From Prevotella sp. (GTDB taxonomy: Bacteria; Bacteroidota; Bacteroidia; Bacteroidales; Bacteroidaceae), in NCBI GenBank assembly GCA_017474925.1, contig JAFVGN010000002.1:1-41661 (forward strand): a stretch of 41,661 nt of DNA. Direction: 5' to 3'. The notes beneath the pieces were generated by a model. The model did not search any database and was not told where the DNA came from. It saw only the letters and a program-made list of their open reading frames with translations. Of the stretch, positions 1,552-35,691 are shown piece after piece. The first letter of the stretch is position 1; each line of letters begins with the position of its first letter. Position numbers and translations under genes: made by a program.

Positions 1552-2115
1552 TTAGCCTTCTGCTCCGCCGCCACCGCCGGGCAGTCCGCCATCTCCGGGC
1601 AGGGTACCACCTCCATTGTCATCGGTGTTGTCGCCAGTGCCGGTGCCGCTGTTGTCGCCAGTAGAGCCGTTTCCGTTCTCGCTCTCGTCGCCCTTCAGGA
1701 GCTGCTCGATGTTGACGAACTCGGCCTTCTTCAGGAACTCGCGGCTGGAGATGTTCTCCTCCGTAGCCTGCTCGGGTAGGAATCGGATGTGGAGAGCCTT
1801 CAGGTGCTTGTTCACGTTGAAATCCTCCTTCTTCAGGGCCCCGTTCTTCTGGTTCTCGAGGGTGCAGTAGAAGGTGCCGAGCCCCTCAATCTTTACCTTC
1901 TTCGACTCCAGTAGCATCTCAACCAGACAGCTGCGGAACTTCTCCAGCACGCCGTAAACGACGTCGGGGGTGTAAATAGAGCCGTGCTCAGAGATGTGGT
2001 TAGCCAACTTGCGCGTGTTCAGCGTCTCAAGGGTTTTGATCTGTGCGTACCACTTGCCGAAGGCCGCAGAGTGCGAGTTCTGGTTTCTCTTTACTTCATA
2101 CAAAATCTTTGCCAT
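1552..2115 (-). CDS. HU-family (DNABII) DNA-binding protein with Gly-rich tail
   Basis: This 187-residue protein belongs to the Bacteroidales HU-like family. I start it at the ATG at 2115 (MAKILYEVKRNQNSHSAAFGKWYA) because that is the usual N-terminus; a start 14 codons upstream is possible but unlikely. Residues 1-120 form the HU-like domain, with the DNABII core seen in VKIEGLGTFYCTLE and the strands after it. Residues 150-187 are a low-complexity tail of Gly, Asn, Asp and Thr ending in a run of glycines. Expected role: DNA bending or bridging. It is the first gene of a two-gene unit with smalltalk, has a perfect Bacteroidota promoter and a leader of about 165 bases with a strong hairpin. 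Confidence 0.88.
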   Translation of the reverse strand: MAKILYEVKRNQNSHSAAFGKWYAQIKTLETLNTRKLANHISEHGSIYTPDVVYGVLEKFRSCLVEMLLESKKVKIEGLGTFYCTLENQKNGALKKEDFNVNKHLKALHIRFLPEQATEENISSREFLKKAEFVNIEQLLKGDESENGNGSTGDNSGTGTGDNTDDNGGGTLPGDGGLPGGGGGAEG

Positions 2116-2151
2116 AGTGTTTAAATGTGTTTTTGTTTTACCAACGAAAAC

Positions 2152-2196
2152 ACTCACGCTCGGCAGACTTCAAGCGAGCTTGGTCTGCTCTCGCTT
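2152..2196 (-). promoter_or_regulatory. Right inverted-repeat arm and hairpin in the HU leader
   Basis: 2152-2181 is the right arm of the inverted repeat that pairs with 1116-1145. Overlapping it, GCAGAC (2163-2168) pairs with GTCTGC (2183-2188), and inside it CAAG (2171-2174) pairs with CTTG (2179-2182) around CGAG, with a two-base bulge. A competing pairing joins AAGCGAG (2172-2178) to CTCGCTT (2190-2196). Two exclusive stems within a transcribed leader could act as a switch; this is inference. Confidence 0.5.
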
Positions 2197-31639: not shown

Positions 31640-32935
31640 TTGAAAACAATAGATTTTATATCGCTTGGATGTTCGAAGAATCTCGTTGACAGCGAGATGC
31701 TAATGGGACTGATGGAGGCTAACGGCTATCAGTGTACGCACGATAGCGATGCCACCCATGGCGAAATTGTTGTTATCAATACCTGCGGCTTCATCAACGA
31801 TGCCAAGGAAGAAAGCATCAATACCATCCTGGAGTTTGCGCAGGCAAAGACAGAGGGACGCATTGAGGGACTCTACGTCATGGGGTGTCTTTCAGAGCGT
31901 TATCTGGCAGAATTGGAACAAGAGATTCCTGAGGTGGACGGATGGTATGGGAAGTTCAACTATAAGCAACTGTTGAACGACCTCAAAGGAGAGAATTATC
32001 AGGCTTGTGAAGGTAAGCGCCACATCACTACGCCACGTCATTATGCCTACTTGAAAATCAGCGAGGGCTGCGACCGGCATTGTGCCTATTGTGCTATCCC
32101 TCTAATTACTGGTAGGCATCAAAGTCGTCCGATGGATGAAATTCTTGACGAAGTACGTCAGCTTGTCAAGGGTGGCACCAAGGAGTTTCAGGTCATTGCC
32201 CAGGAACTGACCTATTATGGTATAGATATTGACGGCAAGCAGCATATTGCCGAACTGATAGAGCAGATGGCCGATATCGAAGGTGTCGAGTGGATACGCC
32301 TCCACTATGCCTATCCGACCCATTTCCCTTGGGAACTGCTTCGCGTGATGCGTGAGAAGAATAATGTGTGTAACTATCTTGACATCGCCTTGCAGCACAT
32401 CTCTGACCGCATGCTTGCCCGCATGCAGCGTCATGTGACAAGAGAGGAAACATACGAGCTGATTCGTCGTTTACGCGATGAGGTACCAGGAATCCATCTC
32501 CGCACCACCTTGATGGTTGGTTTCCCAGGTGAGACGGAAGAAGACTTCAGGGAGTTGCTTGAGTTCACCAAGTGGGCCCGATTTGAACGCATGGGCGCTT
32601 TTGCCTATTCAAACGAAGAGGGTACTTATTCTGCCTCGCACTATGTGGACGATGTGCCTTCAGAGGTGAAACAGCAGCGACTTGACAAGTTGATGCGTGT
32701 CCAGCAGAATATTTCTGCTGAGATAGAGGCAGGAAAAATAGGGGAAATCCTCCGTGTGATAATAGACCGTCAGGAGGGTGACTGGTATGTTGGCCGTACA
32801 GAGTTCTGCTCACCAGAGGTCGATCCAGAGGTGCTGATACCTGTGACTGATGCCAATCTGACAATAGGCGAGTTCTATGATGCCTGCATAACGGATGCCG
32901 AAGAGTTTGACTTATATGCGACGACAAGACTATGA
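31640..32935 (+). CDS. rimO: Ribosomal protein S12 methylthiotransferase RimO
   Basis: The 431-residue radical SAM enzyme adds a methylthio group to an Asp of ribosomal protein S12. The N-terminal cluster is held by Cys11, Cys49 and Cys83; the radical SAM cluster by Cys144-x3-Cys148-x2-Cys151 (CDRHCAYC); a TRAM domain closes the protein. The start is a TTG at 31640: the family N-terminus (KTIDFISLGCSKNLVDSE) begins right there and no ATG fits; AGGA at 31634-31637 may help. Its stop overlaps the next HU gene by 4 bases (ATGA). Confidence 0.95.
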   Translation: MKTIDFISLGCSKNLVDSEMLMGLMEANGYQCTHDSDATHGEIVVINTCGFINDAKEESINTILEFAQAKTEGRIEGLYVMGCLSERYLAELEQEIPEVDGWYGKFNYKQLLNDLKGENYQACEGKRHITTPRHYAYLKISEGCDRHCAYCAIPLITGRHQSRPMDEILDEVRQLVKGGTKEFQVIAQELTYYGIDIDGKQHIAELIEQMADIEGVEWIRLHYAYPTHFPWELLRVMREKNNVCNYLDIALQHISDRMLARMQRHVTREETYELIRRLRDEVPGIHLRTTLMVGFPGETEEDFRELLEFTKWARFERMGAFAYSNEEGTYSASHYVDDVPSEVKQQRLDKLMRVQQNISAEIEAGKIGEILRVIIDRQEGDWYVGRTEFCSPEVDPEVLIPVTDANLTIGEFYDACITDAEEFDLYATTRL

Positions 32936-33216
32936 ATAACAAGGAATTTATTGCCGAACTAGCTGAGCGGACAGGTTATAGTCTGAAGGATACCCAAAAG
33001 CTGGTGAATAATATCATCAATGCTATGGGTGATGCCTTTCAGGAAGACAATAGTGTTCAGGTGCCTAATTTTGGAACCTTTGAGGCGAAGAAGAAGATGG
33101 AACGTATCATCGTCAATCCCTCTTCTGGGCAGCGTATGCTTGTTCCACCCAAATTGGTGCTGAACTTCAAACCCAATCAGAACTGGAAAGATAAACTGAA
33201 GGGAGGACAGGTGTGA
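32932..33216 (+). CDS. HU-family DNA-binding protein, short form
   Basis: The 94-residue protein is a plain DNABII protein: N-terminal helices (NKEFIAELAERTGYSLKDTQKLVNNIINAMGDAF), then the saddle VQVPNFGTFEAKKKMERIIVNPSSGQRMLVPPKLVLNFKPNQ. Residues around Asn-Pro form the DNA-bending arm. It overlaps rimO by 4 bases and the next gene by 4 bases, so three proteins are translationally coupled. It may form a heterodimer with the HU domain of the following membrane-bound protein. Confidence 0.93.
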   Translation: MNNKEFIAELAERTGYSLKDTQKLVNNIINAMGDAFQEDNSVQVPNFGTFEAKKKMERIIVNPSSGQRMLVPPKLVLNFKPNQNWKDKLKGGQV

Positions 33217-34544
33217 TGGGAAAGCTGACTATTCAGGAGATTGCTGCCGTTCTGGTGACGAAGAATGGCTTGGAGAAACGCGAAGCCAATCAGTTTGCTT
33301 CTGTTATGTTTGCCCTTATTCAGGAACGGCTGGAAATTGATCAGTTGGTAAAGGTGAAAGGGCTTGGTACGTTTAAGATTATCGATGTTGAAGCGCGCGA
33401 GAGTGTCAGTGTGCGTACAGGTGAGCGTGTTACCATCAGCGGACATGCCAAGGTGTCCTTTATTCCTGATGCTACTATGAAGGAACTGGTAAACAAGCCC
33501 TTTTCACAATTCGAGACCGTTGTGCTCAATGACGGGGTGGAATTCTCAGACATGAAAATGCAGAGCAGCGATAATGACGAAGAGGATATTCTGGAGGAAA
33601 CGAATACAATCCCAGAATCGCTTTCTGAGGAAGCTGTAAACGAAGAGCCTGTAGAAGAACCTGCCCCTGTAGCGGCGGAAGTCGTGGAGGAAGCAACTGC
33701 CTCTGTTGTGGCGGAAGTCGTGGAGGAAGCAGCAGCCCCTGTAGCGGAAACGGAGGTGGAAGAGCCTGTTGCTCTCATGGAAGTTCAAGAGGAGCAACCA
33801 GCCCTTGTCGTGGAAACTGAGGTGGAAGAGCCTGCATCCATTGCAGAGGAAGAACAAGAAGACGAACAAATAGCTGATGAGGAGGATAAAGAGGAGGAAA
33901 AACTGATGGAAGAACCAAAATCTGCGCTTGTCTCAGAAACAGTCGAGGAGCGTGCTGAAGAATCTTATTCTGACGAAGAAGATGGTTCCCAATGTTCAGG
34001 AGGTCATAGAATCCTGGTTGTACTGGGCGTCTTGGCGCTGATGGCAGCCTCTGCGGTGGGAGGTTATTATTTGGGCAGACAGAATAGTCCTGCTGTTAAG
34101 ATAGTTCCTGACACGGTGGTTGTTCACGATACCATTACGGCTCCCCAGACAATCCCGTCACATGACGCGAAGGACGTACCAGATGCAGAACCTGTTAAAC
34201 TGGTTCCTGCCAAAGAGGCAGAGAAAGTAGAGCCGATTTCAGGACTTTCAAGAAGAGAACCAGCCGAACTGGCGTCCTCAAAGTCAGAAACTGCCACAGA
34301 GTCTGTCGACAAGTATTCCCAGAAGGATGCTCGCGTACGCCTGGGAGCTTATCGTATTGTGGGGCTCGATCATGAGGTGAAGGTGCAAGCTGGTCAAACT
34401 TTCTATGGTATCTGTAGGGCAAATCTTGGGCCTGACATGGAGTGTTATGTTGAAGTGTATAATGATTTGCCAAGCAATCCGACGATTAAGGAGGGCCAGA
34501 TTATCAAAATTCCCAAATTGCAGCTTAAGAAGAAACGCAAGTAA
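33213..34544 (+). CDS. Membrane-spanning HU-LysM fusion protein
   Basis: The 443-residue protein has four parts. Residues 1-95 are an HU/DNABII domain (VKVKGLGTFKIIDVEARESVSVRTGERV, FIPDATMKELVN). Residues 120-258 are an acidic, Val/Glu/Pro/Ala-rich linker with imperfect repeats of VVEE and VEEP. Residues 267-288 form a single membrane span (ILVVLGVLALMAASAVGGYY). Residues 389-436 are a LysM domain (VKVQAGQTFYGICRANLG, then NPTIKEGQIIKIP), which binds peptidoglycan. With the HU part in the cytoplasm and LysM in the periplasm, the protein could tie DNA to the wall. The topology is inferred from the single span. It is the last gene of the ftsY operon; a terminator follows. Confidence 0.9.
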   Translation: MMGKLTIQEIAAVLVTKNGLEKREANQFASVMFALIQERLEIDQLVKVKGLGTFKIIDVEARESVSVRTGERVTISGHAKVSFIPDATMKELVNKPFSQFETVVLNDGVEFSDMKMQSSDNDEEDILEETNTIPESLSEEAVNEEPVEEPAPVAAEVVEEATASVVAEVVEEAAAPVAETEVEEPVALMEVQEEQPALVVETEVEEPASIAEEEQEDEQIADEEDKEEEKLMEEPKSALVSETVEERAEESYSDEEDGSQCSGGHRILVVLGVLALMAASAVGGYYLGRQNSPAVKIVPDTVVVHDTITAPQTIPSHDAKDVPDAEPVKLVPAKEAEKVEPISGLSRREPAELASSKSETATESVDKYSQKDARVRLGAYRIVGLDHEVKVQAGQTFYGICRANLGPDMECYVEVYNDLPSNPTIKEGQIIKIPKLQLKKKRK

Positions 34545-34560
34545 AATAGTAAGAATATGA

Positions 34561-34595
34561 AAGTTTCCTAAAATAAAGTTTTGGGAAACTTTTTT
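34561..34595 (+). terminator. Terminator of the ftsY operon
   Basis: AAGTTTCC (34561-34568) pairs with GGAAACTT (34584-34591), followed by a T-run to 34595. Confidence 0.8.
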
Positions 34596-34695: not shown

Positions 34696-35691
34696 ATGGC
34701 AGAAGCTATTGACATCCGTGAGTTGAACATCCGGATAGAACAACAGAGTGGATTCGTGACCAATTTGGTGACGGGAATGGATCAGGTAATCGTAGGACAA
34801 AAACATTTGGTAGACTCTCTTCTGATAGGACTGCTGAGTGATGGAAATATCCTTTTGGAAGGAGTCCCTGGCCTGGCAAAGACCCTGGCCATCAAGACTT
34901 TGTCGCAGCTGATAGATGCTACGTACAGCCGCATTCAGTTCACTCCTGACCTGTTGCCAGCTGACGTGACAGGTACTATGATTTATTCGCAGAAGGAAGA
35001 GAAGTTCCAGGTGAAACGAGGCCCCGTGTTTGCCAATTTCGTGTTGGCTGATGAAATAAACCGTGCTCCCGCTAAGGTACAGAGTGCATTATTGGAGGCT
35101 ATGCAGGAAAAACAGGTGACCATTGGCAGCGACACCTTCGATTTGCCGAATCCCTTCTTGGTGATGGCAACCCAGAACCCCATTGAGCAGGAGGGTACTT
35201 ATCCGCTCCCTGAGGCTCAGATGGACCGTTTCATGCTGAAGGTAGTTATTGGCTATCCCACTATTGACGAGGAGAAGAAGATTATCCGCGAGAATATTGC
35301 TGGCGGACTGCCCAAGGTAACGCCAGTCACCAGTGCAGCCGAGATTGTGAAGGCGCGTTCCGTCGTGCGTGAGGTCTATTTGGACGAGAAGATTGAGCAA
35401 TACATTGCCGACATCGTTTTTGCCACACGTTATCCTGATCGCTATGGTTTGAAGGATATGAAGGAAATGATTTCCTTTGGTGGTTCTCCCCGTGCCTCCA
35501 TCAATCTGGCCAAGGCAGCCCGTGCCTACGCCTTCATCAAGCGCCGTGGCTATGTGGTGCCTGAGGATGTGCGTGCCGTGGCCCATGACGTGCTTCGCCA
35601 CCGCATAGGCTTGACCTATGAGGCTGAAGCCAGCAATGTGACCAGTGAGGAAATTGTCAGCAAGATTATCAATAAGGTTGAAGTTCCTTAA
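34696..35691 (+). CDS. MoxR-family AAA+ ATPase of the Bat operon
   Basis: The 331-residue protein is a MoxR chaperone ATPase: Walker A GVPGLAKT (56-63), Walker B FVLADEINRAP, sensor MATQNPIEQEGTYPLPEAQMDRFM, and a C-terminal helical lid. MoxR proteins work with VWA-domain proteins, which are encoded downstream. Its stop TAA overlaps the next ATG by one base (TAATG). Cytoplasmic. Confidence 0.93.
   Translation: MAEAIDIRELNIRIEQQSGFVTNLVTGMDQVIVGQKHLVDSLLIGLLSDGNILLEGVPGLAKTLAIKTLSQLIDATYSRIQFTPDLLPADVTGTMIYSQKEEKFQVKRGPVFANFVLADEINRAPAKVQSALLEAMQEKQVTIGSDTFDLPNPFLVMATQNPIEQEGTYPLPEAQMDRFMLKVVIGYPTIDEEKKIIRENIAGGLPKVTPVTSAAEIVKARSVVREVYLDEKIEQYIADIVFATRYPDRYGLKDMKEMISFGGSPRASINLAKAARAYAFIKRRGYVVPEDVRAVAHDVLRHRIGLTYEAEASNVTSEEIVSKIINKVEVP

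Follow-up and report, generated by a model that had tools for sequence, protein, structure and literature searches.

We found that a two-gene locus in Prevotella sp. encodes a plain HU protein and, directly behind it, a second HU-domain protein whose chain continues through a long acidic linker and a single transmembrane span to a LysM-like C-terminal domain. The locus lies in the window, by which we mean the whole 41,661-nucleotide stretch of contig JAFVGN010000002.1 that was analyzed. The pairing of the two genes is fixed at every locus analyzed, and the two kinds of HU protein each form a single clade that spans two classes of the phylum. We infer that the two proteins may form a heterodimer of HU subunits, one of them anchored in the membrane, which would tether the nucleoid to the envelope via LysM, a reading whose chances we put close to evenly balanced. 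The fuller proposal, that parts of the phylum carry a two-gene system in which an obligate HU heterodimer would use its membrane-fixed subunit to bolt the nucleoid directly to peptidoglycan, its subunits splitting the DNA-binding duties differently in each class, is offered tentatively, with our doubt somewhat outweighing our belief.

The plain HU partner gene (32932 to 33216, forward strand; 94 amino acids) matches PF00216 with an E-value of 6.7e-24 and keeps the arm-tip NP. In the sequence, its ATG overlaps the stop codon of rimO, and its own stop overlaps, as TGATG, the ATG at 33216 that opens the membrane-spanning HU-LysM gene (33216 to 34544, forward strand; 442 amino acids). The open frame from 33213 to 34544 on the forward strand is real, with its stop ending at 34544; the GTG at 33213, from which the gene had first been read, would give 443 amino acids, and the ATG at 33216 is the likelier start. 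A terminator-like hairpin, detected by a consensus scan only, lies 3' of the gene (34559 to 34593, forward strand).

Within the genus of the window, 50 of 60 genomes (its own included) and 32 of 32 good-quality ones carried a match, which here means that part of the protein was hit at E ≤ 1e-6. At the family level, the C-terminal model matched at E ≤ 0.01 in 107 of 149 good-quality genomes, with the architecture checked in some only. Using a wider HU profile (A4) on a sample of the order, we detected long HU proteins in 22 of 148 genomes from 14 families, all scoring at least 94 bits in frames of more than 300 amino acids; the next match scored 75.6 bits in a 95-amino-acid frame, a clean split from plain HU. 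The same profile applied to a sample of the phylum gave 33 of 296 genomes at 103 bits or more, 30 of them in a single family of another class (f131, which we guess to be Balneolaceae) and three in the family of the window, its own genome among these, followed by a match of 84.5 bits in a 94-amino-acid frame. Among the genomes listed, three further f131 genomes had weak A4 matches only. Given this patchy spread across both samples, the HU-LysM pair is not a general requirement. One family of the order is represented by a lone, lower-scoring member (L193, 94 bits), the other sampled genome of that family being without one; this member was perhaps acquired by transfer.

A plain HU gene adjoins the long gene with a regularity that makes the two a single unit. 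By profile, an HU gene lies directly upstream of the long-HU gene in all 166 analyzed loci (L084-L097 were excluded); these reduce to 131 distinct loci, all of which have the plain HU gene directly upstream, at a gap of -11 to +33 nucleotides. A profile of the upstream HUs (A6) reached 90 bits or more in 22 of the 148 order genomes, precisely those that carry the long HU protein, and its other matches reached 84.0 bits in pair-carrying genomes and 80.9 bits in the 126 genomes without the pair. Since A6 was built from such pairs, many of them from the same genomes, the co-occurrence is partly built in, although the absence from the other 126 genomes is not. In a tree of 187 thinned rows, made up of 89 long, 81 upstream and 17 plain HUs, the first two kinds each formed a clade of their own that spans both classes (support 0.968 for the long HUs and 0.977 for the upstream ones), and all 17 plain HUs, a small sample from one order only, fell outside both. 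The fixed adjacency, the co-occurrence and the two clades together indicate that the pair is one unit that is either old or has been transferred whole. The initial annotation had suggested that the upstream HU could pair with the long protein; this gains support from the adjacency of the genes at every distinct locus and their presence in the same genomes, and their products may form a heterodimer.

The neighborhood beyond the pair is less constant. All 50 named Prevotella-group loci (L003-L052) have genes for FtsY and RimO ahead of the pair, and a RimO gene is found there in some other-family loci too (L114-L116, for example). Elsewhere, ten flanking frames at eight other-family loci comprised two without a match and the rest unrelated to FtsY or RimO, some of them on the opposite strand: an aconitase, a PEP-utilizing enzyme, an asparaginase, a chorismate-binding enzyme, a polyphosphate kinase, HemN twice and a secretion-tail protein. 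The upstream HU is the sole neighbor present at every locus, bearing in mind that flanks outside the named loci are short (about 1.5 kb). A housekeeping role had been proposed from the coupling to ftsY and rimO, but this argument is weak, as the linkage is specific to a lineage and the HU pair persists elsewhere; we therefore rejected any function read from ftsY and rimO, other families and the other class having other upstream genes while the HU pair stays. On the 3' side, the pair is followed in the window by a gene for a MoxR-type ATPase (34696 to 35691). Many loci of the order share this arrangement, which might go beyond chance.

The HU domain of the long protein (33228 to 33494, forward strand) matches PF00216 over residues 6-94 with an E-value of 2.9e-16 (59.9 bits versus a cut-off of 22.4). 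The alignments took in 58 of 70 sequences (identity below 72%; of 72 loci, L002 and L053 yielded no frame) and, separately, 34 of 49 sequences with eight Prevotella-group rows, and PF00216 matched at E ≤ 0.01 in 58 of 58 and 42 of 42 aligned long-HU members. A conserved post-HU motif, VNKPFSQFETVVLNDGVEF (33489 to 33545, forward strand), forms a signature of the family in the alignment: N93, P95, F96, F99 and T101 are invariant in the 58 aligned members, and the N is also invariant across the 42 diverse members. By comparison of the arms, the tip reads S-V-R-T-G in place of N-P-x-T-G, so that the membrane HU of the window has Val where Pro would be expected. The arm-tip Pro is the intercalating residue in HU and IHF structures, and its absence marks this protein as a derived HU-domain protein by profile rather than a typical HU. 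Both members of the pair thus belong to the same domain family as plain HU and IHF (PF00216), from which the membrane subunit differs by the conserved motif behind the HU domain and by the rest of its chain.

With arm and basic positions numbered on a plain HU of the same genome, the two classes show different divisions of residues between the subunits. The upstream HU has the arm-tip Pro in 131 of 131 loci; the long HU has it in 2 of 103 in the order of the window versus 28 of 28 in the other class. Position 82, basic in all 18 plain HUs compared, is basic in the order of the window in 99 of 103 upstream HUs and 1 of 103 long HUs, and in the other class in 15 of 28 long HUs and 2 of 28 upstream HUs, the basic residue being missing from both subunits in 12 of these 28 pairs. 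At position 60, both subunits keep the basic residue in the order of the window (101 and 102 of 103); among pairs of the other class, it is found in 28 of 28 long HUs and 8 of 28 upstream HUs. None of the 131 pairs lacks the arm-tip Pro in both subunits, and 130 of them have a basic position 60 in at least one subunit. The median net charges of the HU parts are +2 for the membrane subunit and +4 for its partner in the order of the window, and -1 and 0, respectively, in the other class. That different subunits have been worn down in the two classes would fit a heterodimer that needs only one good half; the 12 pairs with position 82 basic in neither subunit and the low net charges speak against it.

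Behind the HU domain, the linker (33549 to 34010, forward strand) contains 57 Asp or Glu and 6 Lys or Arg across 157 residues, and its best 150-residue stretch has a net charge of -52, the runner-up among the 29 frames of at least 200 amino acids in the window having -20. Degenerate 36-nucleotide repeats within it (33654 to 33950) encode acidic units of about 12 residues, reminiscent of the acidic repeats of HubP. Across the 131 distinct loci, the linker is 34 to 360 residues long (median 120) and net acidic in 128, with a sequence that is poorly conserved in the alignments. The window's protein has one span (34011 to 34067, forward strand; residues ~267-285) with a mean hydropathy of 2.23, a value that falls below 1.6 in 5 of 131 loci. 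It is followed by a spacer of about 80 residues with low conservation in the alignment (34068 to 34307, forward strand); the whole tail C-terminal to the span measures 106 to 223 residues in the distinct loci, by estimate long enough to reach the wall.

Lys and Arg residues flanking the span total 351 on the HU side versus 174 on the LysM side over the 131 loci, which are related and so not independent; locus by locus, the HU side is richer in 93, the LysM side in 19, and 19 are tied. An N-terminal hydrophobic segment (mean hydropathy of at least 1.6) was found in none of the 131. Based on the positive-inside counts and the lack of such a segment, the HU part is predicted to be cytoplasmic and the LysM part outside, in agreement with the initial annotation, which had placed them on opposite sides of the membrane. 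The reverse arrangement, with HU outside and LysM inside, could draw on the Lys/Arg-rich C-terminus of the window's protein and on the 19 loci with a more basic LysM side, but it runs against both the totals and the uniformly missing N-terminal segment; we find it scarcely credible and rejected it.

The conserved C-terminal domain (34308 to 34541, forward strand) consists of a KDxRVRxGAYRIVG lead-in, a LysM-like core and a Lys/Arg-rich tail. Pfam LysM was not found in the full-length protein of the window at E ≤ 1, and the C-terminal fragment alone matched PF01476 with an E-value of 0.005 (17.2 bits, short of the 20.9 that the cut-off demands). In a set of 58 C-termini from the family, including that of the window, 54 matched LysM at E ≤ 1, the best at 6.9e-8, and 20 of 58 full-length proteins did so at E ≤ 0.01. 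The best match of the Prevotella family profile among solved structures was a LysM cell-wall-binding endopeptidase (E-value 7.6e-5). We also assembled a wider set of 47 farther C-termini that remained after thinning, together with the window's; L113, L149 (which repeats the locus of the window) and L179 (where the gene runs off the end of the locus) were omitted, and the upstream HU set likewise numbered 47 after thinning. Singly, 12 of these 48, but not the sequence from the window, matched LysM at E ≤ 0.01. The joint profile of the set matched Kbp best among solved proteins (2.7e-14), then Ecp6 (5.6e-11), TsaP (1.5e-10) and other LysM proteins, with wall hydrolases such as LytE (1.1e-6) behind Kbp.

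Given the LysM matches of the relatives and the profile matches, a LysM fold is well supported for the family, and the C-terminal domain of the window's protein can be assigned a LysM-like fold through these relatives, with wall binding a possible consequence. The domain order first proposed for the protein (HU, acidic linker, span, LysM) accordingly stands, the HU domain by Pfam, the linker by composition, the span by hydropathy and LysM by way of relatives. The Prevotella LysM model is narrow: at E ≤ 1e-8 it matched, among 198 genomes of the order, the window's own only, and it did not reach the f131 members or most farther families, so that the LysM assignment in f131 rests on the joint profile. 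By profile the domain is like the LysM of Kbp, Ecp6, TsaP and wall hydrolases, to which Prevotella-group members add the conserved lead-in (GAYRIVG) and an invariant Cys. This Cys, encoded at 34443 to 34445 in the LysM part, is present in 58 of 58 Prevotella-group sequences, and by eye its place is often taken by Trp in other families. In the f131 members (L128-L147), LysM is followed by an extra tail that looks helical by eye.

In the mechanism that we favor, the two genes would yield an HU heterodimer with one subunit free and the other fixed in the inner membrane, and the HU part of the pair would bind the DNA of the chromosome on the cytoplasmic side. The linker, being long and acidic, would form an extended spacer and repel both DNA and membrane, the single span would cross the membrane, and the LysM part would grip peptidoglycan or a wall-bound partner. 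The HU pair would in this way hold the nucleoid at the envelope and serve to place or segregate the chromosome. Such a DNA-to-wall tether is plausible and better supported than it seemed at first sight, with both binding activities predicted from sequence. It is weakened by the loss of the arm-tip Pro and of one Lys of plain HUs from the membrane HU of the window's own order, and by the LysM profile of farther members, which is nearest to Kbp and not to the wall hydrolases. HU domains of the CCDC81 type in eukaryotes have been proposed to act in protein contacts, and here too the HU fold might have been reused for protein contacts rather than DNA, as a membrane scaffold whose HU part would draw in its partner HU or further proteins, at sites such as those of division or envelope growth. 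A membrane subunit of low positive charge without the arm Pro and Lys would suit such a role, which we nevertheless consider unlikely, given that the partner has the arm-tip Pro in every pair and other basic positions in the order of the window, and that the membrane subunit of the other class has the Pro in all 28 cases.

The rank of Kbp ahead of LytE, along with a LysM score under the Pfam cut-off in the window's own protein, bears on a different possibility: the protein could anchor DNA to the membrane while its LysM binds some other envelope component, or only dimerizes, instead of binding peptidoglycan. Ecp6 and TsaP bind chitin and wall, and their place in the joint profile's matches, like the cell-wall-binding endopeptidase at the head of the Prevotella profile's, speaks against this idea, which we consider decidedly unlikely. 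The layout is also that of a one-pass sensor, in which the state of LysM outside could alter the action of HU on local DNA or transcription inside. We regard a wall-sensing regulator of this kind as very improbable, because a linker that varies from 34 to 360 residues and is poorly conserved is more in keeping with a spacer than with a route for signals.

The closest functional parallel to the HU-LysM pair, by analogy, is HubP of the FimV/HubP type. HubP of Vibrio cholerae has a periplasmic LysM, one span and a large acidic cytosolic part with Asp/Glu-rich repeats, and affects the position of the chromosome origin through ParA1, according to the part of the published account used here (PMC8789113). 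As far as that part goes, HubP/FimV and the HU-LysM protein share an outside LysM, a single span and an acidic cytosolic region, with the topology of the latter predicted and its LysM assigned through relatives. HubP has LysM at the N-terminus and TPR at the cytosolic end, and the order here is reversed, with HU first and LysM last; no TPR match was found in the window's HU-LysM protein at E ≤ 1. HubP acts on DNA through ParA1, with no HU mentioned in the same part of the account, whereas the HU-LysM protein has an HU of its own. The excerpted gene table of a further study has HU and LysM in separate rows (PMC10434189).

The genus itself also holds CCDC81-like HU-SPOR proteins (PF18174, PF18175, PF05036), which likewise combine HU, a hydrophobic segment and a wall-binding-type domain in one protein. 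PF18174 matched in 29 of 30 genus genomes, the miss being the window's own genome, which is 64% complete. In three of three such proteins scanned, the best 19-residue hydropathy was 1.72 to 2.1 and SPOR was matched, once just below the cut-off. They have two CCDC81-type HU domains and SPOR, unlike the window's protein with its one PF00216 HU, its partner gene and LysM. We rejected membership of the HU-LysM protein in this family, as at E ≤ 1 the window's protein matched none of PF18174, PF18175 and SPOR, and its C-terminus is LysM-like instead. Among long-HU members, PF18175 matched at E ≤ 0.01 in 17 of 58 and 21 of 42, and PF18174 in 1 of 42; we take these as cross-matches of the single HU. 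Burroughs and others reportedly predicted a chromosome-partition role for CCDC81-type HU proteins in 2017. With these HU-SPOR proteins in the genus, the joining of HU through the membrane to a wall-binding-type domain was already known, and the HU pair with LysM is distinct from it. Our search of the literature, which covered mainly open-access papers, found no publication that describes a membrane protein of the HU-LysM type.

Most of the DNA-envelope links known from other bacteria run through adaptor proteins, and to our knowledge little is known of chromosome placement relative to the envelope in Bacteroidota. If the tether is real, the HU pair with its span and LysM would give abundant gut bacteria a direct DNA-envelope link that can be tested, and as a fixed set of two genes it offers a clean target for deletion. 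The window also contains a second unusual HU protein, of 201 amino acids (1552 to 2157, reverse strand), which is of the HU-HIG type (PF18291, 60.5 bits) and ends in a Gly/Asp-rich tail.
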